Source: a virus. Taken from it: 63,483 nucleotides of DNA. The stretch lies in the IMG/VR virus record IMGVR_UViG_3300034013_000310, positions 1-63,483 of that record. One strand, written 5' to 3'. Shown piece after piece: positions 1 to 63,483 of this stretch. The translations under genes and the position numbers were made by a program. A model generated the notes under the pieces. It was given only the letters and a program-made list of their open reading frames with translations, was not told where the DNA came from and searched no databases. Position 1 is the stretch's first letter, and every line of letters begins with the position of its first letter.

Positions 1-30
1 GTATAAATCTTGGATATATTTTTTGTCCAT
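1..30 (-). CDS. 5' end of giant virion protein gene (partial, window edge)
   Basis: The first ten codons of the 2546-aa giant protein that is complete at 55376-63016 are repeated here and run off the left edge. They sit just downstream of the 624-aa gene, as at the right end of the window, which shows that the map closes into a circle. Confidence 0.85.
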   Translation of the reverse strand, partial: MDKKYIQDLY

Positions 31-497
31 TTTTTAAGATTTTATTATTTACCTCTTCTTTGACTAGCATTTAAGTTCGCTCCCGATCCGGAACCACTCT
101 TAGGTTTTTCTCCTCCTAAGAGCTTTTTGGCATCTAATGTTTCCACAAATTTAACCAACTCTTTGTATTGAGCACCTGCCGCGTCTCCGCTCTCATCAGA
201 ATTTAGTTTCTTTATAAGCTTGTCTCCTTTAAATATAGAGATATTGTCTGTGATACCGGTATCGTACATTACCCTGATCTTTTCATTTTTTCCTGCCGTT
301 CTATTATATTCATCAAATAGACTTAATATTTTTTTAGCAGTATCTTTTGAGCTTTTGTCTGAGAAATCATCAGGAGAGATGTTACTGTCTTTAATCTTCT
401 GACTCACCTCCGTTTTTAAGTTTCTTTCATATCCTTTAGCTTGAGCTTTTGTATTTACCTTCGCACCAGGCTTATTAAGTCTAATCAACTCTTTATC
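1..497. repeat. Left copy of the 497-bp end overlap (variant allele)
   Basis: This segment aligns without indels to 62987-63483. Bases 1-77 and 421-497 are identical to the other copy; bases 78-420 differ at many sites. The flank length of exactly 77 bp on both sides fits a de Bruijn k-mer boundary around a polymorphic bubble. It is best read as two alleles of one locus at the point where the circular contig closes. Confidence 0.8.
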
Positions 498-29298: not shown

Positions 29299-29742
29299 AT
29301 GAAAGCGAACACCCCTGATTACCTAAAATACTGGAGAATCATACGCCAGTACATGAAAGTTAAACACGGAGTATCTCAAGCAGATTTAGATATGCTGCTA
29401 TTCCTCCACTCCGAAAAATACTTTAGCGGCGCGAAGTTCGCCGAGTTCGAAGCAGTGCTACCTTGGGACAAGTTTAGACTTGCAAGGCTCAAACAAAATG
29501 GATGGATAGAAATCTTCAAAGGAAGAAGAGAGAAGGGAAAAGTGGTTTATAAGCTATCCCACAAAGCTGTTTTGATGATTAGAGACATCTACAGAAAGCT
29601 CGGCGGAGAAGAAATCCCCACCGGCACTCTGCATAATAAGATGTTCAAGAAGAATGTGTCCTACACCGACAAGGTTTATAGGCACATGATTTTGAAGATG
29701 AATGAGGCTATAAGACAACAACGACGTCAGACTCCCGAATAA
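29299..29742 (+). CDS. Winged-helix DNA-binding protein, regulator candidate, 147 aa
   Basis: The middle fits a winged helix: SQADLDMLLFLHSEKYF, then LPWDKFRLARLKQNGWIEIF in place of a recognition helix, a basic wing GRREKGKVVYKLS and a long C-terminal helix. This MarR-like layout in a lone rightward gene divergent from the late region suggests control of the early/late switch. Its end overlaps the convergent groES gene by 35 bp. Regulatory role is inference. Confidence 0.6.
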   Translation: MKANTPDYLKYWRIIRQYMKVKHGVSQADLDMLLFLHSEKYFSGAKFAEFEAVLPWDKFRLARLKQNGWIEIFKGRREKGKVVYKLSHKAVLMIRDIYRKLGGEEIPTGTLHNKMFKKNVSYTDKVYRHMILKMNEAIRQQRRQTPE

Positions 29743-29965
29743 TGGTCATAGGCTGTTCGTTTATGATCATCGTAAACGAATGGCTTTTGTCATAGTAAAT
29801 TTCGTCATCGGCCTTTATCGCAGCAACCTCTGTTCCGGAAGCCACTACTACGCCTTTTTTATACCTGAAGTTGTTCGCGTCGTCAGCGGATAACAATAAC
29901 CCTGACTGCGTTTTTATCTCCTGCTCTACTGTCTTGATAACAATATATTTTCCGATGGGTGTCAT
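29708..29965 (-). CDS. groS: GroES-type co-chaperonin, 85 aa
   Basis: Short GroES/Cpn10-like chain: MTPIGKYIVIKTVEQEIKTQ, then SGLLLSADDANNFRYKKGVV (mobile loop region and start of the barrel), VVASGTEVAAIKADDEIYYD and the terminal IIRESDVVVVL, matching the GroES pattern of G-x-V, D-x-V-x-Y and R-E-x-D-I. It would cap the phage GroEL encoded upstream in the same operon and help fold virion proteins. Slightly shorter than the usual 95-100 aa. Confidence 0.75.
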   Translation of the reverse strand: MTPIGKYIVIKTVEQEIKTQSGLLLSADDANNFRYKKGVVVASGTEVAAIKADDEIYYDKSHSFTMIINEQPMTIIRESDVVVVL

Positions 29966-30204
29966 AATGTTTGAATGAATATTGGAGCGCCGACACCGAC
30001 ATACATCGCGTCTAGCTCGTTATAAAAATGCTCAACTGCCTCCTCGTGACTGAAGCCACTTTGTTGTAGTATCTCGATGCACTTGTCGATGGAGTAGACA
30101 AGATTGCTCCTGCTACTCACACCGATAATTGCCTGGTCGAATCCGGCCACTTTGTTGTAGCCTTCATTTGGGAATTGGTCTAATATTTTATTAAGAATGC
30201 TCAT
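29962..30204 (-). CDS. Hypothetical protein in chaperonin operon, 80 aa
   Basis: The ATG at 30204 is preferred (MSILNKILDQFPNEGYNKVA). Contains CIEILQQSGFSHEEAVEHFY, a small helical pattern often seen in phage unknowns. It overlaps groEL by 14 bp and groES by 4 bp, so it is co-expressed with both; whether it works with them is unknown. Confidence 0.6.
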   Translation of the reverse strand: MSILNKILDQFPNEGYNKVAGFDQAIIGVSSRSNLVYSIDKCIEILQQSGFSHEEAVEHFYNELDAMYVGVGAPIFIQTL

Positions 30205-31798
30205 ACGTTCTCGCCATTGTAACGATAGCATTTGTGCTCAAGATTGTAACGGCCACACTTATCGCGTTTTGTAAAGCGCTTCGCGTCACCTTCACCGGAT
30301 CAATCACCCCCATCTTGATGAGGTCTCCCATCTCTCCGGTTTTTAGATTGTACCCATACCCCGGTGCAACACCCTCCGGATACACGTCGCTAGCCTTTAG
30401 GCCGGCATTGTCAAGTATTTGAAGGAACGGCTCCATAAGCGCATGCTTTACAATGTCGATAGCAAGGTTGTACTCATCCGATTTTGACTCGTCTTGTGAA
30501 AGTTTTAAAGCCTCCTCAAGCAAAGTCTTACCTGCACCCGGTAGAATACCCTCCTCAAGCGCGCTTCTAACAGCACACACCGCGTCATCCACACGGTCAT
30601 AAAGCTCTTTTTGCTCCAGGTCAGTATGCCCACCAACAAAAATTACCCCTATACCACCAGTAAGCGAGGCAATTCGCTCCAAAATGAAGTCCTTGTCCGC
30701 TTTTCTCACCGCATTTTTGTGTGCTACCCACAATTGCTCAACCCTCTCCTTCACCTCTGCCTCATCTGCTCGCGCGTCAGACTTGATAATGATGGTTTTG
30801 TCCTTGCTCACGATGACTTTTGCCGCGTGTCCAAGGTCTCCGAAGTTGATAAGGCTCAAATCGTCACCGGTCTTTTCACTGAAGTAGGTCGCACCCACGC
30901 TAATAGCGATGTCATGCATCAGCTCGTGCTGCTTATACCCGAATCCCGGTGGCGCAACAGCGCAAACCTTTAAGTTTCCTTTTACAGCATTGGCCGCCAA
31001 GGTATTTACAACGTTAGTATTGCATGGAGAAATGATTAAAAGCTTTTTACCCTCACTGATAATTGGCTTTAACACGCTCTCAATTTGCAAAATATTTGCT
31101 ATCTCCACATCAGCTACCAACACCATCACATCGTCCATAACACATTCGTCCTTTTTTTGGTCGTTGATGAACATAGAGCTTAAATACCCTCTGTCAAATT
31201 TTAAACCTTGAGTGGTCTCAGCATACGTCTCGTCGGTCTGACTCTTCTCCACCGTTACGATACCATTTTTACCAACGTCTTTGTATACCTCAGCAATGAT
31301 TCGCCCGGTCTCTCTGTCGTTGTTTGCCGAGATTGTCGCCACGTCGCTTATCATCGAAGCAGTAACTTTTTTGGCGCGCTTTTTTAAGTTGTCCACCACC
31401 TTGTCGCTTATCTCCACCATGCTGCGAAGCACCTCGGTACGATTAGTCTCAGGAGTGATCTTGTCAGCACCACGCAATACCAATGCCTCAGTGAGTACAA
31501 TGGCCGTAGTAGTACCATCACCGGCACTTGTCGCCGTTCTATCGGCAGCCTCTTTCATCATTCGAACCGCAAGGTTCTCAGACGCGTCAAAAAGATTGAT
31601 TGATTTTGCTACAGTAACACCATCTTTGGTCACTGTGATACCATGAGTATGGTCAGGAGATTCAATAAGAACTGTGTTTCCGGAAGGCCCAAGAGTGCTC
31701 TTTACAGCTTTGGATAGCTTTACGACACCACTTACAAGTTTTTTCCTTCCATCTTCCCCGAAATGTAAATCTTTTGGAGAGTAACCATTTTCTATCAT
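30191..31798 (-). CDS. groL: GroEL-type chaperonin (Cpn60), 535 aa
   Basis: A full-length group I chaperonin. ATP-site motifs are present: GPSGNTVLIE near residue 30, TVTKDGVTVAKSI, and DGTTTAIVLTEAL near 75. The apical and second equatorial parts are intact (EEGILPGAGKTLLEEALKL). The Gly-Gly-Met C-terminal tail typical of bacterial GroEL is missing. The start is ATG 31798; an upstream TTG reading would extend into the promoter element. Codon use is GC-richer than surrounding genes. A phage-encoded folding chamber for its own capsid or replication proteins is the probable role. Confidence 0.92.
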   Translation of the reverse strand: MIENGYSPKDLHFGEDGRKKLVSGVVKLSKAVKSTLGPSGNTVLIESPDHTHGITVTKDGVTVAKSINLFDASENLAVRMMKEAADRTATSAGDGTTTAIVLTEALVLRGADKITPETNRTEVLRSMVEISDKVVDNLKKRAKKVTASMISDVATISANNDRETGRIIAEVYKDVGKNGIVTVEKSQTDETYAETTQGLKFDRGYLSSMFINDQKKDECVMDDVMVLVADVEIANILQIESVLKPIISEGKKLLIISPCNTNVVNTLAANAVKGNLKVCAVAPPGFGYKQHELMHDIAISVGATYFSEKTGDDLSLINFGDLGHAAKVIVSKDKTIIIKSDARADEAEVKERVEQLWVAHKNAVRKADKDFILERIASLTGGIGVIFVGGHTDLEQKELYDRVDDAVCAVRSALEEGILPGAGKTLLEEALKLSQDESKSDEYNLAIDIVKHALMEPFLQILDNAGLKASDVYPEGVAPGYGYNLKTGEMGDLIKMGVIDPVKVTRSALQNAISVAVTILSTNAIVTMARTYEHS

Positions 31799-31822
31799 TG
31801 GATTGAATTTAAAATTGATAGG

Positions 31823-31830
31823 CAAATATA
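31823..31830 (-). promoter_or_regulatory. Promoter of the chaperonin operon
   Basis: Minus strand TATATTTG with a TTG exactly 19 nt upstream, the best match in the window to the Bacteroidota TTG-N19-TAnnTTTG promoter. Predicted start about 20 nt before the groEL ATG. Confidence 0.65.
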
Positions 31831-49713: not shown

Positions 49714-50045
49714 CAAAAGAACAAAGAATCCACGTTGGTATGGTGAATTCATTCAATATTATAACCGGTAAAGCTAATATCGATCAGATTATCGACGCTG
49801 GCATCGCTGTATTCGCGCATGAACCAAACTCAGATATAGGAAAGAAGAACATTGAGTTTATGATTTACTATTTCAGAGAGCAGGAAATGTACGAGGAATG
49901 TTCAGAGCTTTCTAAATTCGTAGAAGAAACCTTCAACGAAGATGGAACTTACAAAGAGAATTTCTGCGAATGCGAGAGGCCAAAGATTGTAGAGTACACT
50001 AAAAGAGTAAAGTGTGGAACATGCAACATGAGGATAAAAGTATAA
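49710..50045 (+). CDS. Hypothetical protein with C-terminal Cys cluster, 111 aa
   Basis: MTKEQRIHVGMVNSFNIITG, an acidic helical middle, then FCECERPKIVEYTKRVKCGT ending CNMRIKV: four Cys that could bind zinc. It overlaps the helicase N-half start by 25 bp, so it is coupled to it. Confidence 0.6.
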   Translation: MTKEQRIHVGMVNSFNIITGKANIDQIIDAGIAVFAHEPNSDIGKKNIEFMIYYFREQEMYEECSELSKFVEETFNEDGTYKENFCECERPKIVEYTKRVKCGTCNMRIKV

Positions 50046-50839
50046 TAGAGATAACCCCTGGGTTTACTTACAAGAATATGTGGGATTACTGCGAGGCCTT
50101 AAAAGAAGTCATCGATATAGAGATAGAAGTTCAAGAAGGTCGCGGAAGAAACATCATCACAAAGCAGGTTTTTAAGCACAATATTCCGGATGAGGTTAGG
50201 CAGAGAATTTACAATAGCTGCGAGTATTATAAAGGACTTTTTAAACAATCTATGAATTCAGAATCAGGTATCCAATTTAGAGATTATCAAACAAGGATAA
50301 TCTATGAAGGCTCTAAGATTATTCAGCAGCATGGCTTCGTGTACTTGGCTATGGAGGTTAGAACCGGAAAGACACTGACTAGCCTTGGAATCGCATCAAA
50401 GATTTCAAGCCACAAGGTTTTGTTTTTAACAAAAAAGAAGGCTATTAGTAGTATTCAGAGGGATTACGACCTACTTAACCCTATCTATCATTTAACAGTT
50501 ACTAACTACGAAAGTTTACACAAGGTAGAAGGATCTGATTGGGATTTGATAATTTGTGATGAAGCGCATTCCTGCTTTTTAGAAGATACTTTAATAGATG
50601 GTATAAAAATAAAAGACATAAAGTTGGGGAGTTTCCAAAAAAGTTTTAACTTTGCAAAAGGAATTTATGAATATAAAAAAGTATTAAATGTATTTAAAAA
50701 TCCTTTAACTGAAAATTTAATAAAAATAAAATGTAATGGAAAAGAAATTGTATGCACCGAAAGCCACAAAATTTTTACAAAAAGAGGATGGGTTAAAGCA
50801 GGAGAGCTGTTATCCACAGATGAACTGCAAGTTTTGTGA
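50021..50839 (+). CDS. SF2 helicase N-half fused to a split-intein N-fragment
   Basis: Residues 1-184 are the N-extein of a DEAH/SNF2-like helicase: FRDYQTRIIYEG (Q-motif region), VRTGKTLTSLG (Walker A) and ICDEAHS (motif II). Directly after Ser, at 50573, the intein starts: CFLEDTLIDG (block A), and CTESHKIFTKRGWVKAGEL is block B with the conserved T-x-x-H (here TESH). The frame then ends with TGA, so the N-fragment is 88 aa. Codon use becomes AT-rich at the junction. It should trans-splice with the product at 51401-52492. Confidence 0.85.
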   Translation: MQHEDKSIIEITPGFTYKNMWDYCEALKEVIDIEIEVQEGRGRNIITKQVFKHNIPDEVRQRIYNSCEYYKGLFKQSMNSESGIQFRDYQTRIIYEGSKIIQQHGFVYLAMEVRTGKTLTSLGIASKISSHKVLFLTKKKAISSIQRDYDLLNPIYHLTVTNYESLHKVEGSDWDLIICDEAHSCFLEDTLIDGIKIKDIKLGSFQKSFNFAKGIYEYKKVLNVFKNPLTENLIKIKCNGKEIVCTESHKIFTKRGWVKAGELLSTDELQVL

Positions 50840-51521
50840 TAAGCCTTTAACTGATTCTCAGATTTACGAATACTTAAGAGGAAAAACTAAAGGATGTTGT
50901 TCAAGATTTTGCGGTAGTCTATATTTTTATTATGAAAAAGCTATTAGCTTACCTAAGTATAAAATAAAAAATGGAAGAAAAAGAAAATTATTCAGTGGAG
51001 TCTGTACAGTTTGTAGTTCAGAATTTGAATCTACAGTAAAAGTTCAGAAAACTTGTAGTTCAAAATGTGCAGGAAATTTATCTTCTATAAGAATGACTGA
51101 AAAAAATCCAATGCTTAATAAAGAAGTGAGAGATAAGGTTTCAGAAACATTAAAAAGAATTGGTCATAAACCAATTAAGCAAGGAGGGAATGGAAGGGGA
51201 AATACAACGGAACAGCAGTTTCTATATAATGAATTGTTAAAAATTAATAAGTCATTTGTTTGTGAGTACATATTTAAAACAAAAGATTTCAATGAAGAAA
51301 AAATATATCCAAATCATTACAAAATAGATATAGCTTCAGAAGAATTAATGATAGCAATAGAAGTAGATGGAAGAAGTCATAACAGTTTAAAAGTAAAAGA
51401 ATGCGACAAGAAAAAAACAGACCTATTAATTTCGCAAGGGTGGAAAGTATTGAGGTTATCAAACTCACAGATACAGAAAGAATTAGAGAGCTGTGTCCAA
51501 GCGGTTATGTTTATGATTTAG
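50820..51521 (+). CDS. Free-standing Vsr/DUF559-like homing endonuclease between intein halves, 233 aa
   Basis: ATG 50820 gives MNCKFCDKPLTDSQIYEYLR. Two Cys-pair zinc modules (CKFC...CCSRFC; CTVC...CSSKC) precede a NUMOD3-like stretch (NPMLNKEVRDKVSETLKRIG). The C-terminal nuclease shows TTEQQF, YPNHYKIDIA, IAIEVDGRSH and KKKTDLLISQGWKVLRL, the Vsr/DUF559 (EDxHD) pattern. It lies in a different frame from both helicase halves and overlaps the start of the C-half. This arrangement is known as a fractured gene (split intein plus endonuclease). Confidence 0.82.
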   Translation: MNCKFCDKPLTDSQIYEYLRGKTKGCCSRFCGSLYFYYEKAISLPKYKIKNGRKRKLFSGVCTVCSSEFESTVKVQKTCSSKCAGNLSSIRMTEKNPMLNKEVRDKVSETLKRIGHKPIKQGGNGRGNTTEQQFLYNELLKINKSFVCEYIFKTKDFNEEKIYPNHYKIDIASEELMIAIEVDGRSHNSLKVKECDKKKTDLLISQGWKVLRLSNSQIQKELESCVQAVMFMI

Positions 51522-52492
51522 AAATAGAAGATAATCATAACTACTTAGCAGAAAATATATTAGTTCATAACTGCGGCGCATTCCCTAAGCCAAGTAATAG
51601 AGCTGTTCAAATAAAAGACTTGATAGCCAAGACTAAGGCTAAAGTGATATTGCTTTCAGGAACGCCTACTCCGGAGTCATACTCTCAAATGTATCACCAG
51701 GTTTATGGTATACCGAACAGCCCTTTCCGAGAGTTTAAAACTTTCTACAGATTTTGTGATAAATTTGTAAATGTAAAAACCAAGATAATCAACAGTTTAA
51801 AAATGAACGACTACTCTGATGGTATGTATACCATACTTGAAGAGATGGCTCCATTCACAATAAACTATACTCAAGAAGAGGCTGGCTTTATTGCTAAAAC
51901 CACTGAGGAGATTATGGAGGTTCCGCTGAAAGATTCAACCTACAAGCTTATATCTAAACTGAAGAGAGATTTAGTTGTTGAAGGCAAAGAAGAAGTGATA
52001 CTTGCTGATACACCGGTAAAGTTGATGAGTAAAGTTCATCAGCTTTTTTCCGGAACCATAAAGTTCGAGAGTGGCAAATCAATGGTATTGGATACTTCAA
52101 AGGCTGAGTTTATAAAAGAGACTTTCATGGGTTGTCAGATAGGGATATTCTACAAGTTCAAAGAAGAGCTAGAAGCATTGAAGCAGGTATTTGAAGATGA
52201 ACTTACTACAGATTTGGATGAGTTCAACTCGACTTATAAGAATATAGCCTTACAGATAGTGTCGGGCCGGGAGGGTATATCATTGAAGAAGGCTGACTAC
52301 TTAGTCTATTATAACATTGACTTTAGCGCAACAAGTTATTGGCAGTCTAAAGATAGGATGACCACCAAAGATAGACTCGAGAATCAAATATTTTGGATTT
52401 TCTCCAAAGGAGGTATCGAGCATGAGATTTACAAAGCAGTAACAAAAAAGAAAGACTATACGCTTTCTCACTTTAAAAAAGATTTTTTATGA
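51401..52492 (+). CDS. Split-intein C-fragment fused to SF2 helicase C-half
   Basis: Up to 57 residues of intein C-fragment: GYVYDLEIEDNHNYLAENIL (block F) and VHN followed by Cys at the splice junction (51571/51572, block G). The C-extein (306 aa) resumes the helicase with CGAFPKPSNRAVQIKDL, VILLSGTPTP (motif III) and YWQSKDRMTTKDR (motif VI region). ATG 51401 lies within the endonuclease gene; a GTG at 51440 would give a more usual length (44 aa). The joined helicase would be about 490 aa. Confidence 0.85.
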   Translation: MRQEKNRPINFARVESIEVIKLTDTERIRELCPSGYVYDLEIEDNHNYLAENILVHNCGAFPKPSNRAVQIKDLIAKTKAKVILLSGTPTPESYSQMYHQVYGIPNSPFREFKTFYRFCDKFVNVKTKIINSLKMNDYSDGMYTILEEMAPFTINYTQEEAGFIAKTTEEIMEVPLKDSTYKLISKLKRDLVVEGKEEVILADTPVKLMSKVHQLFSGTIKFESGKSMVLDTSKAEFIKETFMGCQIGIFYKFKEELEALKQVFEDELTTDLDEFNSTYKNIALQIVSGREGISLKKADYLVYYNIDFSATSYWQSKDRMTTKDRLENQIFWIFSKGGIEHEIYKAVTKKKDYTLSHFKKDFL

Positions 52493-53236: not shown

Positions 53237-53517
53237 GAAACAAGTTAGCCGGCAAGCACCCTTCTTACGATAAGTTGGGTATGTCAGAGGAAAGAAAAAA
53301 GAAAAAGCTTGAGTACGACAAGAAGTATCAGGCTACAGAGAAGCGTAAAAAGTACAGAGCCGAACTCAATAAGGCTAATCGAGATGCCGGAACATACGGT
53401 AAAATGACAGATATAGGTAAAGATCGTAGTCATAAAAAAGATGGTTCAATGACTTTAGAAGATAAAAGTAAAAATCGTAGCAGAAACGGACAAAATAAAA
53501 AAAGCACAAAGAAATGA
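53233..53517 (+). CDS. Highly basic hypothetical protein, 94 aa
   Basis: Lys/Arg-rich with Tyr (EERKKKKLEYDKKYQATEKR ... ANRDAGTYGKM) and a polar C-terminus. May bind nucleic acid; the resemblance to phage proteins with K-K-Y-x-x-T-E-K-R-K-K-Y-R repeats is noted. Overlaps neighbours by 4 bp. Confidence 0.55.
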   Translation: MRNKLAGKHPSYDKLGMSEERKKKKLEYDKKYQATEKRKKYRAELNKANRDAGTYGKMTDIGKDRSHKKDGSMTLEDKSKNRSRNGQNKKSTKK

Positions 53518-53846
53518 TAAAGTGTATCTGTGTAGATGATAGAGAAAAACCAAGTCGTATACCTCAAGAAAAGTGGGTTAAAAAAGGTCAGGAGTACACT
53601 CTTGCCTTCAGTATGACTGTACATCCTCAAAAGAAATTAGCGTTTCAACTTCAAGAAATCGACCTTGATGAGAGCTGTAGTCCATATACTTGGTTTCTTG
53701 CCAGCCGATTCTCTTTCAGAGAAGAAGACTTGCCGGCGCTAATAGAGTTTATTCAAGACTGTAACAAGATCACTTTCTCAATTAACGAGTTAATGAATGT
53801 GACTAAAGTAAATGAAAGAGAGCCAAATACAAGCCAAAAAAATTAA
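53514..53846 (+). CDS. Hypothetical protein, 110 aa
   Basis: Beta-rich start IKCICVDDREKPSRIPQEKW, then WVKKGQEYTL, CSPYTWFLASRFSF and a helical end. This matches a small phage pattern (K-x-x-x-K-G-x-x-Y-T-L). It overlaps the truncated head of the VRR-NUC gene by 35 bp, which is how the original VRR-NUC start was coupled. Confidence 0.6.
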   Translation: MIKCICVDDREKPSRIPQEKWVKKGQEYTLAFSMTVHPQKKLAFQLQEIDLDESCSPYTWFLASRFSFREEDLPALIEFIQDCNKITFSINELMNVTKVNEREPNTSQKN

Positions 53847-53964
53847 AGAGCTGGAATCTCAGGGGTATTACGTTGTAAAGCTTGTAAAGACTTTATTTTT
53901 TAATTTATTTTTAATACATTTGTATTTGCAATCTCTCACTTGCAAAGAAAAATATTTAGTCTAA
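53812..53964 (+). pseudogene. Orphaned 5' end of the VRR-NUC gene
   Basis: The first 27 codons (MKESQIQAKKIKELESQGYY, VVKLVKT) match 20 of 27 residues of the intact gene at 54554. After that, AT-rich unrelated codons (LFFNLFLIHLYL...) lead to a stop. This is the native start of the VRR-NUC gene, cut off by the insertion of the HNH element. Confidence 0.75.
53915..53922 (+). promoter_or_regulatory. TAnnTTTG promoter element of the HNH insert
   Basis: TACATTTG inside the inserted DNA, 105 bp before the HNH start, giving a transcript whose leader contains the pseudoknot. No clear -33 TTG. Confidence 0.45.
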
Positions 53965-54014
53965 TGACTAACGACAAAACCTAATAGTGTGTGAGAGCCT
54001 ATTAGGTTTTTGTC
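53933..54014 (+). ncRNA. Predicted pseudoknot in the HNH leader
   Basis: Helix 1: TTAGTC-TAAT-GACTAA (53956-53971). Helix 2: GACAAAACCTAATAG (53973-53987) with CTATTAGGTTTTTGTC (53999-54014), 15 bp with one bulged T. The loop of helix 2 contains GTGAGAG (53991-53997), which is the exact complement of CTCTCAC at 53933-53939. The 3' arm also looks like a terminator. It ends 13 nt before the HNH ATG, so it may control read-through or translation. Confidence 0.6.
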
Positions 54015-54027
54015 ATTTTATAATACT

Positions 54028-54567
54028 ATGGAAATTTGGAGGTCTATTGATAATTACGAAGGTTATGAAATAAGTAATTTAGGGAATATTAAAAGTTTGA
54101 GTAAAAAAATAAAATGCAAAAATGGTTTTAGAATTACAAAAGAAAAAATACTAAAATTAAAAAAAACAAAAGGAGGATATTTATCTTTACAGTTAAAAAA
54201 TAAAGGAAAACACTTTTTAGTTCACAGGCTTGTTGCTTTAGCTTTTATTCAAAACCCTGATAATAAACCACAAATAAATCATATCAACGGAATAAAAGAT
54301 GATAATAGAGTTGATAATTTAGAATGGTGTAATCAGTCGGAGAATCAAATTCACGCTTATAAAAATAGGCTGCAAATGCCAAGTGCGCATAAAAGAGCTT
54401 TTGGAGAGAATCAAGGATGTTCAAAGCTAAAAGAAAAAGATGTTTATTTTATTTTAAAGAACTATAAAAAAGGAAGAGGTATAGAATTTGCTAAAATTTT
54501 CAATGTTTCACAAACCACAATTTTAAATATTGTTAATAAAAAAATTTGGACTCATGTTAGAATCTAA
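54028..54567 (+). CDS. NUMOD4-HNH homing endonuclease, 179 aa
   Basis: ATG 54028 gives MEIWRSIDNYEGYEISNLGN (NUMOD4), then a HNH core: VHRLVALAFI, INHINGIKDDNRVDNLEW (His, Asn and His/Asn of HNH). A C-terminal HTH follows (FAKIFNVSQTTILNIVNKK). Strongly AT-rich compared with its neighbours. The last 14 bp overlap the start of the rebuilt VRR-NUC gene. Selfish element inserted in the nuclease gene. Confidence 0.88.
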   Translation: MEIWRSIDNYEGYEISNLGNIKSLSKKIKCKNGFRITKEKILKLKKTKGGYLSLQLKNKGKHFLVHRLVALAFIQNPDNKPQINHINGIKDDNRVDNLEWCNQSENQIHAYKNRLQMPSAHKRAFGENQGCSKLKEKDVYFILKNYKKGRGIEFAKIFNVSQTTILNIVNKKIWTHVRI

Positions 54568-54796
54568 AATACAAAGAAAAAAAATAAAAGAACTTGAAAG
54601 TAAGGGTTATTATGTAATAAAACTTATTACTACAAATCGACCTGGCGTCCCTGATATTTTAGCTATACCTCCCGGCTCGGACATTCTAATGATAGAAGTT
54701 AAAGGGCCAAGCGGAAAGACATCACCATTGCAGGATTTTAGAATAAAAGAGCTGCGAGACCACGGAATAAACGTTGAAGTATATAAACCACTCTAA
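54554..54796 (+). CDS. VRR-NUC family nuclease with recoded N-terminus, 80 aa
   Basis: A minimal VRR-NUC (PD-(D/E)XK) nuclease: RKKIKELESKGYYVIKL, RPGVPDILAI (catalytic Asp), MIEVKGPSGKTSPLQ (E-x-K and conserved Gln), then HGINVEVYKPL. The first 27 codons duplicate the orphaned copy at 53812 but with 11 synonymous changes among 20 identical residues; from about 54640 onward base use returns to that of the phage. Probably a junction or flap nuclease for replication. Confidence 0.85.
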   Translation: MLESKIQRKKIKELESKGYYVIKLITTNRPGVPDILAIPPGSDILMIEVKGPSGKTSPLQDFRIKELRDHGINVEVYKPL

Positions 54797-54990
54797 TGAA
54801 TCCGTTATCAGAAAGCGAGAATGAAAGAGCAAGCAGAATAGCTCGAAGAATAGATGAGTACCATTCTCTTCTTTCTAATATCTACGAGAATATCGTGGAC
54901 AGAGATGTTAAGCTTGTCAAGAAAGACGTTCAGTTTTTGATGATGGAGTTAAGATGTGTATTAAAATCAATAGAAGAGGATGATTTTTGA
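54796..54990 (+). CDS. Hypothetical protein, 64 aa
   Basis: Helical protein (MNPLSESENERASRIARRID, LKSIEEDDF). Overlaps both neighbours (1 and 11 bp). No family recognised. Confidence 0.55.
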   Translation: MNPLSESENERASRIARRIDEYHSLLSNIYENIVDRDVKLVKKDVQFLMMELRCVLKSIEEDDF

Positions 54991-55375
54991 TAAAGATGTC
55001 GCGATAAAAGAAAAAGCGATGAACACCTTCGTGAATACTTTTGGAGGATCATTTAAAAAATTAGATCCTCTTGATGTGGACTATAAAATATTCAACAAAG
55101 ACAATGCGTTAATCGCTTATGCTGTTGTTGTTCCGGTTCCAAGAATGATAAAAGACTCGTATCCTATACCGGTGGAAGCCAAGAAAGCTGTAAAGCTTAT
55201 TGATAAAAGATTGGCGCCGGTGATTATATGGGCTTGTGAGAATGGAATAATCTACGGAAAAGCCAACAAAATAAGAGGAGATGTCAAGTGGAGTAAAATT
55301 ACCACTAACGACACCTCCGAACTTATTATCTACTATGACAAGCAGAAAGAATTGAAGTATGTAAGATACTCTTGA
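54980..55375 (+). CDS. Hypothetical alpha/beta protein, 131 aa
   Basis: MIFDKDVAIKEKAMNTFVNT; then LDPLDVDYKIFNKDNALIAY, a D-Y-x-x-...-Y-A-x-V-x-V pattern that could be a PD-(D/E)XK-like core but without a clear E-x-K; then LAPVIIWACENGIIYGKANK. Last rightward gene; its stop abuts the stop of the convergent giant gene, with no terminator visible. Confidence 0.55.
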   Translation: MIFDKDVAIKEKAMNTFVNTFGGSFKKLDPLDVDYKIFNKDNALIAYAVVVPVPRMIKDSYPIPVEAKKAVKLIDKRLAPVIIWACENGIIYGKANKIRGDVKWSKITTNDTSELIIYYDKQKELKYVRYS

Positions 55376-61300: not shown

Positions 61301-63016
61301 TTTACTGGCTAATACGTTTCTTAAACCATAAGCTTCAAGAACTGCACTTGTTATACCAATTGGTAAAGTCACTGCTAGCTTTTCATTCTCCGATATGTTT
61401 GCGAAGTCTGGATCCTTTTCCATTTCCTCCATTACTCCATCAGAAACCTGGGCATACATCTGCGCGGTTCTTTGCGCCCATCCAGCCGGCCCCGAACCGC
61501 CTATCATTGCAGGAAGAGATTCAGACAGCCCAAGTATAGCGCCTCCCCAAAAACTTTCTTTTTTTAGGTCTGACCATTGTTTAGTGGTTTCAGGATCTCC
61601 AAATATTTCTTCAGCACCTATCCTTACATAAGGAAGCACCCTTCCTTTTATGTCTTTTTTAATAACATCGTCTACCTCGTCTTCCCATTGATCTAATTGA
61701 TCCTCTGTAAGAGTTTTCTTCCATTCTTCAACACTTTGCTTTTCCGATGGTGGTGTAACTCCTATTTTTTTAGCTATATCAATCGATACATTTTTTAAGT
61801 CTTTTGGACTCATACCATATCCAGCCGGCATAATTTCTGTTTGAACATCAGATATTAAGCTAGTTATACCTGAAGTCATTTTTCCTATACCTCTATTAAA
61901 TGAATCCCAAATACCTCCAGACCATCCACCCTTTTTGGCTTCTGATATTCCGTATTTAGCCACTGCTGCATTTAGTCTTTGGCCTCGTGCTTTTATTTTT
62001 TCCTCCTCAGATAATAGTGATTTCATCTCTGACATCAAGGCTAATCTTTTTTTCTCTATTTCTTCGGTGTTTCCAAACTCTTCAACCTCTTTCTCTAAAG
62101 ATTCTGTCTTAGCCAAGAACTGTTTCTGTCTTTGATTCAAATCATTAACTTCTTTTGTTATTGATTTTATTGAGTTGTCAACATCTTTTTGTGAGTTGAA
62201 CTTTTTATCCTGCTCTCTTAAAGTGTTCTCCAACACAAAAAGCCCCTTGGCCGGGGCATTTGTTTTTATAAAGGATTTTAATGTTTCTGCTTGCTTTGAA
62301 GATTTTGAACTTAGGAAGTTGTCGAGAGAAACCTCGATGGTTTTTCCATTTGGAGCAGTTACTTTCATGTAGTCCCCCATGGCCCCGGTCTCTTCAAATT
62401 TAAAACCTAAATCACCAAATTGATATTCCATTTCAGGAACAACATACTCTTCTGTTTTATTAATTAGAGATGTGTTTATTGAAGCCAACCTATCGTTTAG
62501 ATATTGGCTCTCAGCAGGTTTTGGTTTTATTTTTAACTGTCTGTCAAATACGTCTGAGTATTTTTTCTTTTCAGATTCAAGAACTTTCTTTTCCTCAGAT
62601 ATTCTTGTCAGCGTTTTCTTTGCTTCTTCTTGTTTTGCTTTAGAGAATACAACTTTTCCGGACATGTCTTTTATATCCGTATTTGATATGTTCTCTAAAT
62701 CTTCTTGAGTTAGCTTTTTTTGAGGTCTAACTGTAGGAGGTGTACCCAAAGAACCATCCGCCGAAGACGATCCCATAGCTTTTGCTGGAGCTGGCTGAGA
62801 CTGTTCTGAGACCGATAAATCTTTTTTTTTTACAGGAGTAGAAACCAATGCTGTAAAGTCATTGAAGTCTCCAAGAGTTTCGCTTCCTATGCTGTTATAG
62901 AAATCCTTTTGGTAAGTTTTATCTGTAGTTATAAGGACTTGAAAGTCTTCGAATGAACCGAATTTATCTTGTCCTCCTAATTGATTGTATAAATCTTGGA
63001 TATATTTTTTGTCCAT
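55376..63016 (-). CDS. Giant polyvalent virion/ejection protein candidate, 2546 aa
   Basis: The N-terminus (KYIQDLYNQLGGQDKFGSFE, then FYNSIGSETLGDFNDFTALV) carries a short repeated pattern seen in giant phage proteins. Long coiled coils and hydrophobic patches lie at residues 480-690 (LGLSESLPAMIGG; VGGFILGVPTG). A GNAT-like segment GKGKGSRMFEKLIAYL sits near residue 1042. The C-terminal third has helical repeats, IFMPLASFRMNQSSRLAADL and a membrane segment near 2225-2250 (VFKVIAAGIGLGISSMAL). Size, mixed domains and position next to other internal-protein candidates fit a DNA-ejection protein. Specific enzymatic activity was not established. Confidence 0.7.
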   Translation of the reverse strand: MDKKYIQDLYNQLGGQDKFGSFEDFQVLITTDKTYQKDFYNSIGSETLGDFNDFTALVSTPVKKKDLSVSEQSQPAPAKAMGSSSADGSLGTPPTVRPQKKLTQEDLENISNTDIKDMSGKVVFSKAKQEEAKKTLTRISEEKKVLESEKKKYSDVFDRQLKIKPKPAESQYLNDRLASINTSLINKTEEYVVPEMEYQFGDLGFKFEETGAMGDYMKVTAPNGKTIEVSLDNFLSSKSSKQAETLKSFIKTNAPAKGLFVLENTLREQDKKFNSQKDVDNSIKSITKEVNDLNQRQKQFLAKTESLEKEVEEFGNTEEIEKKRLALMSEMKSLLSEEEKIKARGQRLNAAVAKYGISEAKKGGWSGGIWDSFNRGIGKMTSGITSLISDVQTEIMPAGYGMSPKDLKNVSIDIAKKIGVTPPSEKQSVEEWKKTLTEDQLDQWEDEVDDVIKKDIKGRVLPYVRIGAEEIFGDPETTKQWSDLKKESFWGGAILGLSESLPAMIGGSGPAGWAQRTAQMYAQVSDGVMEEMEKDPDFANISENEKLAVTLPIGITSAVLEAYGLRNVLASKGVINSITMSVLGRAGANTSARTFRELVENEVESKLAKGLLTVTAAGIAEFETGAAQELSESTFKSVYNKIKEKNMFNTPDSKMDLLENVLVAGAQEAVGGFILGVPTGVSTAYSEKGFLKMDDITFTTFENMANDDKMQSAYIANLKQQIAQGIITVAQGKEQLNNYRNSVGLFRQLPDGLTTEQKKEAMNLLKEKRDLETYVNGKDAALVVKQKNRITEINDSLTKLSETNAIQEQSTAAVPVQPETGVSETVEERVSGPKPEVVTEEGTKEEVIIPEQHRQEYDARINQYEGLIQDLEKDLEKEESKGVLSSWLSDAANEKKWIKEEIDRYKNKVKLLKENPVEFFKQELKDVKESHEERINEDPDYKQRIVDEYGTTEFDVVYSDAIDNFNRKISDYESAKEVVTPTIESTQPQTIIDTNVTEYLGNPTITEVEDGQLYEFRTEDGIMAGVMTSPTEFRIDGISANEVGKGKGSRMFEKLIAYLKDKGVTTINTRSAGEGAVRMHNKAVEKGLLTKVEEDGRNATFTIITEQVAEPQDVLLGQDIAEQLGLPPAPEGFDIVSEPAPVIEAPAVADLLELDTTDKTNLQRVADFLDRLDSALDIDPNELNDVTRVMTVTTAKAVIKALKALVNAGITLQEAINRVSAEQKVTPEQIIDAMNIVSKINENKAEGVSEFDLPGYNRMVGEIEGIIEKSKKRRVSADKIADNVMSYVMGSKVYEDATDVQREALVREVRKRFGLKEKSAPSVGKLFGKIKDIKKITMTEKDALIKQIKDTAKGAKDAISASRRIAEQLSKDVKELAATGSITAKQAANVIRAFSKVNVFSQKSVDKFVDYMTKVFENADYADNIRNANKLRKIIKKLSRNKDKNVDLRTVGSEFSKIDPSMVDNIFEYNKIASEIKNAIKGTAAKVKNFTVADTINIDEVSDYIAKTLKSQEVKLREESIKEIQDLLDVDASQFSAEDIDTLLSVYGEGKSPSVTKYNEGIIRAAVKKAFDTYSAMIKKSISDGVDLFTGEDTEYTREQKAIIQKFMKMDTNKMDIKDSVAAIDSLVNFLVNKSTAKMEAVIAEYEGEQNAREVESNKKIVKTDLRKLWSKPFAKFLGEQTTSLPILFEKKFKGFNAAGYVMEKMGISELINRKSFAQRQATNIVNDYVNEFYKKTANGQAFNTLFNSIERGMNAFMTRNIVGTQQEMQEEFNRRKGLIEQSIDALSEGNKTEQEKAKVYREIYDKILKDSKNYQEVQSKTDAVNNSAVKFWVDQWDSKFDKLSDVAKNVYNKELSRDLNYTPDKYTRIKYDRGDVDLENSESAFINNTDGVLYKKETGVLMSKKPSSTLPSNRRGNVTAYIDLSFDKNNSNSMYDALVDIETAASVRQVQSFIDSKSFEKIFGDDSQIFRNRLKSYVQNSRKKSPFSDDELSKAINALNRISSFGASQVLAGPLQPIKQVIPVMFNTLLNTGGYLDVKAPFDADFNAWLNKAGYAISNRGVESQAQIDSINKLIDEAASSKGEKLLKYIEKINKAYLDVFLAKPDVAIARASWKSYYEQSLREQGIDDKDINYKDHEVNKEAANYAQRMVDRQQNISDPDLAGKLFSSKEKSTQVLTKIFMPLASFRMNQSSRLAADLTTLGYWNSATKEDRKIAIRSLSGFLIEATVFKVIAAGIGLGISSMALSYMGEDDEEERKKRRDAIVKGNVTGAVTDVLSPIPVADKLVQWGSANSLEFAQDMMGLSEKDKVSLYSPKGQDFFQQLGMFGITGTRAKEVAELVDMYATGTYKDQYDNVREIPEEKREKLGALIGPSILTGFGLLPSEVASFTRNSVKVAKKKGISSEEKQKMQSKIEDLQEVVEGNYSEQTKEAASKLIEKMENPEDYKEEKSKLNEMKKELLYDEEKDVTYDNVTDLKKYNPKLWKKNFGPGSEWDDLTKDEKKVQKIIKDKETKAEEEEFNYDSGDGKIKRIPLIKRKRYKFGAD

Positions 63017-63483
63017 TTTTTAAGATTTTATTATTTACCTCTTCTTTGACTAGCATTTAAGTTTACTCCTGATCCGGAACCACTCTTAGGTTTTTCTCCT
63101 CCAAGGAATTTATTCGCGTCTAAAGTATTTACGAATTTAATCAATTCTTTGTATTGAGCATCTGCTGTCTCTCCTTTTTCATTAGAGTTCAATGTCTTAA
63201 TCAGTTTACCTCCTTTATATATGGATATTTTATTAGTCGGACCAGTATCATACATCACCTTTATCTTTTCATTTTTATCTGCCGTTTTATTGTATTGGTC
63301 AAATAATCCTAATACTTTTTTGGCGGTAACATCTGAGCTTTTACCTGAGAAGTCAGCGGAAGAAATATTACTATCTGTGATTTTTTGACTCACCTCCGTT
63401 TTTAAATTTCTTTCATATCCTTTAGCTTGAGCTTTTGTATTTACCTTCGCACCAGGCTTATTAAGTCTAATCAACTCTTTATC
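62987..63483. repeat. Right copy of the 497-bp end overlap (variant allele)
   Basis: Aligns base for base with 1-497. Identical at both 77-bp flanks (62987-63063 and 63407-63483), divergent between. It holds an alternative allele of the end of the 624-aa gene. Confidence 0.8.
63031..63483 (-). CDS. Alternative allele of the 624-aa virion gene, C-terminal part (partial)
   Basis: Runs off the right edge; encodes the last 150 residues of the protein at 45-1919 with about 30 substitutions (roughly 80% identity) and no indels. Start and end segments are identical (NKPGAKVNTKAQAKGYERNL; NLNASQRRGK). Confidence 0.8.
   Translation of the reverse strand, partial: DKELIRLNKPGAKVNTKAQAKGYERNLKTEVSQKITDSNISSADFSGKSSDVTAKKVLGLFDQYNKTADKNEKIKVMYDTGPTNKISIYKGGKLIKTLNSNEKGETADAQYKELIKFVNTLDANKFLGGEKPKSGSGSGVNLNASQRRGK

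Follow-up and report, generated by a model that had tools for sequence, protein, structure and literature searches.

Most descriptions of endonuclease elements that replace a gene end concern 3′ ends in the mitochondria of fungi. In Glomus mitochondria, Beaudet et al. 2013 (PMC3630166) found an endonuclease ORF together with a foreign carboxy-terminal end and a native remnant, and cited further cases from Allomyces, Rhizopus and Mortierella. The genes concerned are atp6 of Allomyces macrogynus, with which the preliminary description of the present locus had drawn a parallel, atp6, atp9, cox2 and nad3 of Glomus sp., atp9 of Rhizopus and cox2 of Mortierella (PMC3630166). Compared with a relative lacking the insert, the native ends are about 91-98% identical and the foreign ends 64-81%, while the protein is conserved (PMC3630166). 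Counterparts in phages are the Seg and Mob type endonucleases of T4 (intronless homing), mobE in nrdA of phage Aeh1 and mobA in T4 gene 60, which are treated in a review (PMC2988022). In the phage locus presented here, a homing endonuclease gene has very probably replaced the 5′ end of its own target gene, as judged from comparison with related viral contigs.

The window, i.e. the whole stretch of DNA analysed, comprises 63,483 nt (IMG/VR virus record IMGVR_UViG_3300034013_000310, positions 1 to 63,483), and all features of the locus lie on its plus strand. A gene for a 110-aa protein without known family in the profile search (53514-53846), a conserved neighbour of VRR-NUC in relatives, overlaps with its last 35 nt the native head of a VRR-NUC gene. 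Only codons 1-27 of this head are present (53812-53892, MKESQIQAKKIKELESQGYYVVKLVKT), severed directly after codon 27 by the insert proper (53893-54553, 661 bp), which is absent from uninterrupted relatives and AT-rich (GC 0.256, compared with 0.366 for the window). It contains the promoter-like element TACATTTG (53915-53922), a structured leader followed by a T-run (53925-54014, fold z = -5.08) and, except for its last 14 bp, an HNH endonuclease gene of 179 aa (54028-54567). Profile matches of this ORF to NUMOD4 (1.4e-13, 51.2 bits) and HNH_3 (7.7e-9, 35.5 bits) exceed the curated cut-offs of 23.4 and 24.8 bits, and its product is 48% identical to an HNH protein of the PinkBerry-associated phage LS06-2018-MD08. 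The last 14 bp of the HNH gene (54554-54567, ATGTTAGAATCTAA) are at the same time the first 14 nt of a second VRR-NUC head (codons 1-30, 54554-54643, MLESKIQRKKIKELESKGYYVIKLITT). It continues into the VRR-NUC body (codons 31-80 and stop, 54644-54796), which carries the G-[IV]-P-D and E-x-K residues. The resulting gene (54554-54796) matches PF08774 (6e-11, 42.8 bits, cut-off 23.8). Both the 14-bp overlap and the content of the insert thus agree with the preliminary description.

The two heads share 20 of 27 residues; a codon count gave 9 identical, 11 synonymous and 7 non-synonymous codons, exactly as had been claimed. Their match within the locus is not due to chance (blastp, E = 4.6e-10). 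The 11 synonymous changes, which had been taken as a sign of recoding, are unremarkable by themselves: between the uninterrupted native heads of two relatives, L042 and L041, synonymous differences occur at 15/28 codons. Because native heads differ synonymously just as much, the downstream head is better read as foreign than as recoded.

Searches of viral contigs returned 33 loci with the VRR-NUC query, 21 with the upstream gene and 80 with a VRR-NUC alignment, with overlapping records (L003, L036 and L087 are one contig). Nearly all of these loci contain a single uninterrupted VRR-NUC gene. When uninterrupted relatives were checked for a native downstream-type head, the closer ones were found to carry the upstream-type head MKESQIQSKKIKELEAQGYYV[IL]KL instead, usually directly 3′ of the same upstream gene, in keeping with the order of events first proposed. 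The uninterrupted state is thus the native one, which makes the downstream head of the window the newcomer. The native remnant of the window is 82-87% identical over 62 nt to the native heads of the uninterrupted L039, L041, L037, L035 and others, and the window shares only about 70-80% identity at the locus with its own closest empty-site relatives. A closer pair is formed by the empty L042 and the filled L036 (= L003), which are 92-96% identical on both flanks. Here, the upstream head of L003 matches L042 at 63/68 positions and the body at 148/159, compared with 44/68 for the downstream head. Over nt 1-90 the two contigs show 33 mismatches, compared with 6 over nt 91-243, and the same break point at nt 90/91 is seen between L004 and L007. 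This edge at codon 30/31 lies directly before the conserved G-[IV]-P-D motif.

The filled sites, all in metagenomic records, contain two kinds of endonuclease. In L003 and L048, a truncated native head is followed by a GIY-YIG + NUMOD3 gene (263 and 262 aa, respectively) and by a downstream head of the form MLESKIQ[RN]KKIKELEKEGYYVIKLI[TN]TN. Their inserts start at the same place and with the same letters, AATTTTTTATATGATAGG, and the native remnants are only 84% identical. The replacement head of the window is 90% identical over 90 nt to the heads of L003 and L004 and 82% identical to that of L048. Thus, the same head type adjoins an HNH gene in the window and a GIY-YIG + NUMOD3 gene in L003 and L048. 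In L064, a more distant phage, a relative of the L003/L048 GIY-YIG gene (70% identical) precedes a divergent VRR-NUC gene, and a short native remnant, MKEQQIQAKRI, extends as far as the upstream gene's stop codon. L064 is the weakest case because this remnant is short and its head falls outside the clade of the other four replacement heads; it may represent a separate event. An assembly artefact joining two strains could be suspected where all records are metagenomic and divergent repeats at the window ends hint at mixed strains. It has practically no likelihood in view of a layout recurring in four contigs from different metagenomes, two of them with the same left junction, and of a scar in a fifth.

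Among the loci collected, a protein-repeat scan found the double-head layout next to an endonuclease gene only in the VRR-NUC cases. At 27 other HNH/GIY-YIG loci, no clear duplicated gene start was detected, L060 giving a weak match (score 54, shuffled maximum 41). Compared with its close relative L018, L019 contains a different GIY-YIG gene and two small genes just downstream of VRR-NUC (L019:4023-4748). No duplicated ends were found at this insertion, which is plainly intergenic.

Trees of 47 DNA rows were calculated separately for heads (nt 1-90) and bodies (nt 91-216). The replacement heads of the window, L003, L048 and L004 form one clade (support 100/99), and the same four-member clade is rejected for the bodies (p-AU 0.0003). 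In the body tree, L003 groups with L042 (100/99) and L004 with L007 and L008 (94/98), i.e. with empty-site lineages. Constraining the L003 head to group with L042 is rejected (p = 0.0008), and constraining the L004 head with L007/L008 is rejected more weakly (p = 0.03). The presence of one head clade on differing bodies therefore indicates a single mobile head of 30 codons that is accompanied by either of two endonuclease families. Together with the switch at codon 30/31, the differing histories of head and body imply that some 90 nt of the target gene move along with endonucleases that can be exchanged for one another. Of the earlier proposal that the endonuclease moves with a re-written 5′ end of its target, the joint movement is upheld by this head clade on bodies of different lineages, while the re-writing gives way to a foreign homologue. 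The head tree also leads to the rejection of an origin in which the start of the gene was duplicated in tandem, the copies drifted apart and HNH was inserted between them. The direct order of both heads within one gene would fit such an origin; the downstream heads of four viruses are, however, related to each other and not to the adjoining upstream heads, the window's downstream head being 90% identical to L003/L004 compared with 71% to its own upstream copy. The probability of a duplication is accordingly close to nil.

An in-frame junction between native head and body could be made, and HNH and GIY-YIG genes are often intronic, which would be compatible with a self-splicing intron (or an intein) joining 53892 to about 54636. 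However, no Rfam match was obtained up to E = 5 for 53500-55000 or up to E = 1 for L064 and L003, and the inserts of L003 and L048, with about 20 nt outside the GIY-YIG ORF, leave no room for a ribozyme. A complete and conserved second start would moreover be pointless in an intron-containing gene, and L004 has kept this start without any insert. Splicing is thus very improbable, consistent with the original view that the locus requires neither intron nor intein.

Two heads, a chimeric gene, a sharp right junction, an exchangeable endonuclease and a scar emerge from the comparison of the contigs, and on this basis the following course is proposed. An endonuclease gene and a 30-codon foreign head of VRR-NUC would together make up the mobile unit. 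Cleavage of native VRR-NUC genes by the endonuclease presumably falls at some point within codons 11-31, and donor-templated repair would copy the unit in, with the right crossover at codon 30/31, the edge of the conserved body. The left end would join inside the native head, leaving the truncated native head behind. The target gene would be rebuilt from the foreign head and its own body, and the intact native site would be gone; neither an intron nor an intein would be needed since the gene is restored in this way. The cleavage specificity, the resistance of the replacement head and the activity of the chimeric nuclease are the parts of this course that we infer.

L004 is the only contig found with a downstream-type head and without an endonuclease gene. 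Native codons 1-11 (MTEQQIQTKKI, 30/33 nt identical to L007) are followed by WTNVRI* and then by the replacement head. WTNVRI* resembles the C-terminal end of the window HNH protein, KKIWTHVRI*, and W.H[VI] is also found at the C-terminal end of the related HNH protein of the PinkBerry-associated phage. In the simplest reading, which is based on this one contig, L004 would be a scar: a deletion between short A/T repeats in the native head and in the HNH tail took out the HNH gene, and the chimeric VRR-NUC gene was retained.

A possible source of the head is a third lineage, L169, L172 and L171, in which an HNH gene stands directly before a VRR-NUC gene that natively starts with MLESKIQ. In the sister contigs L174-L177 and L181, which lack the HNH gene, the helicase stop overlaps the VRR-NUC start. 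The HNH insertions of L169, L171 and L172 lie between the helicase gene and VRR-NUC, and in L169 and L172 the insert supplies the helicase with a short new C-terminus. There is no duplicated head in L169, L171 and L172, so head replacement is not obligatory for an HNH gene preceding VRR-NUC. Of all heads, theirs lie closest to the replacement heads, albeit weakly (90/89); both groups are low in GC, which could be the cause of this grouping. Plausibly, a MKESQ-type phage acquired from such a phage a copy of the endonuclease gene standing before VRR-NUC, together with 30 codons of the donor head. No MLES-type head pattern was found in bacterial genome contigs.

The same lineage also speaks for an ordinary intergenic homing endonuclease, placed just upstream of VRR-NUC in a donor lineage, that co-converted its donor flank, i.e. 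a one-sided recombination that left the native head dead by accident, without a dedicated unit or selection on the head. Besides the native MLESKIQ heads of L169, L171 and L172 and their weak proximity to the replacement heads, flank co-conversion is well known for T4 endonucleases (PMC2988022). A single accident does not, however, account for the recurrence of one 30-codon head and its right edge across four backgrounds and two endonuclease families. Co-conversion is thus less likely; the main difference from the replacement of the 5′ end by a mobile unit is whether that unit maintains the head as one of its parts.

If the 5′ end is replaced by such a unit, the persistence of the native remnant calls for a reason. 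In the window, L003, L064 and L004, the overlapping tail of an upstream reading frame lies within the remnant, whose loss would therefore alter the upstream gene. The remnant may be retained through this overlap and as a left homology arm for later homing. The overlap is an incomplete explanation because L048 lacks it. None of the residues that are invariant in the alignment has been lost from the chimeric protein; among them are G31, D34, E48, K50 and Q60, of which D34, E48 and K50 correspond to PD-(D/E)xK. An AlphaFold2 model of the chimera (pLDDT 85, pTM 0.62) places a helix (3-16) and a strand (20-23) in the replaced segment, so that the body alone would be predicted to lack its first helix and strand. 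By sequence, the nearest solved relative is the stand-alone VRR-NUC protein 4qbn (E 2.6e-6). A fold search of the PDB also ranked 4qbn first, with a poor superposition (TM 0.41), and weight is therefore placed on the sequence match.

The leader of the HNH gene starts behind TACATTTG, which we take to be a Bacteroidetes-like -7 promoter element (consensus TAnnTTTG). The loop of its hairpin 1, TCTCTCAC (53932-53939), contains CTCTCAC, which could pair through all 7 nt with the loop segment GTGAGAG (53991-53997) of a terminator-like hairpin in the manner of kissing loops. L064 (GTCGCTG/CAGCGAC), L169 and L172 (GTACGAC/GTCGTAC) and L171 (GTCGTCG/CGACGAC) arrange promoter, hairpin, kissing partner and endonuclease start in the same way, but their letters differ. 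Such designs are located at 53915-54014 in the window, L064:2905-2996, L169:12329, L169:5629, L172:4753 (minus strand), L171:2539, L176:2379 and perhaps L058:2867. Most of them stand before endonuclease genes; in L176 a similar leader precedes a replication gene and in L169 an unknown gene, so a wider type of phage leader is possible. A strict scan gave 13 rows, 9 of them well formed (7 distinct leaders), against 1-6 per shuffle; for the kissing loops, the shared layout weighs more than these counts. Rfam contains no match to the window and L064 regions, and a search of annotated phages for DNA similar to the window leader returned only chance-level pieces. Attenuation control of endonuclease expression is our guess at its function.

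The replication protein of the phage is 76% identical to that of a Manatee Spring podovirus and, over a partial match, 41% identical to those of Flavobacterium phages. Because of this similarity, the hosts of these phages are probably Bacteroidetes bacteria. Upstream of the locus, a helicase gene (50012-52492) is apparently interrupted by a split intein in a 'fractured gene' layout, with an endonuclease-like ORF in another frame (50736-51521) between the two halves. The helicase of L004 has the same split layout, whereas that of L003 is uninterrupted. A 544-aa ORF (30191-31825) resembles the chaperonin GroEL when its translation is inspected by eye, and is accompanied by a small GroES-like ORF (29708-29965). 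The ends of the window (1-497 and 62987-63483) are direct repeats of 497 bp with only 84% identity, which may stem from a circular genome whose two ends derive from separate strains, or from the duplication of a gene end.

If the proposed replacement is correct, a selfish endonuclease would have an additional route, beside introns, inteins and split genes, for residing inside a useful phage gene while leaving it functional, and mosaic gene starts in phages would have a possible cause. Empty sites, a scar of loss and sites occupied by either of two enzyme families are already available, and with an 80-aa nuclease and a 180-aa endonuclease the system is small enough for invasion, resistance and restored function each to be measurable. 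A more doubtful extension is that the head itself, rather than the endonuclease, is the persisting unit. A 5′ end of about 90 nt that resists cleavage might then act as an immunity allele and pass from one phage lineage to another; it would outlast the endonuclease, as in L004, and offer a landing pad to HNH or GIY-YIG endonucleases, some of them with a common kissing-loop leader RNA.

Among known systems, the T4 Seg/Mob type shares a free-standing gene beside its presumed target, the copying of donor flank and the loss of the native site. As described in the review (PMC2988022), these genes lie between genes or split them, and they have no truncated native head beside a foreign replacement head. 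The endonuclease genes mobE in nrdA and mobA in gene 60 are likewise found within an essential phage gene, with neither intron nor intein involved. They divide their targets into two polypeptides that assemble (PMC2988022), whereas here the second start restores one intact polypeptide. Split genes are listed in the passages of the review that were consulted and end replacement is not, and a search of the open-access literature found no case of 5′-end replacement in a phage. The fungal mitochondrial elements also combine an endonuclease ORF (LAGLIDADG or GIY-YIG there) and a foreign gene end fused in phase with a native remnant. In the phages, too, the foreign end is fused in frame, the VRR-NUC head and body having different histories, and the remnant is closer to uninterrupted relatives than the foreign end, as in the comparison of L003 with L042. 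Unlike the fungal cases, only the phage loci pair HNH or GIY-YIG genes with one common foreign head and include a loss scar. The 3′ (carboxy) end is replaced in fungal mitochondria and the 5′ end in these phages, which would add 5′ ends to the phenomenon. By its sequence, the phage locus thus appears to work like the fungal gene-end-replacing elements, mirrored to the 5′ end, and is classed as a variant of them because the 5′ rather than the 3′ end is replaced.
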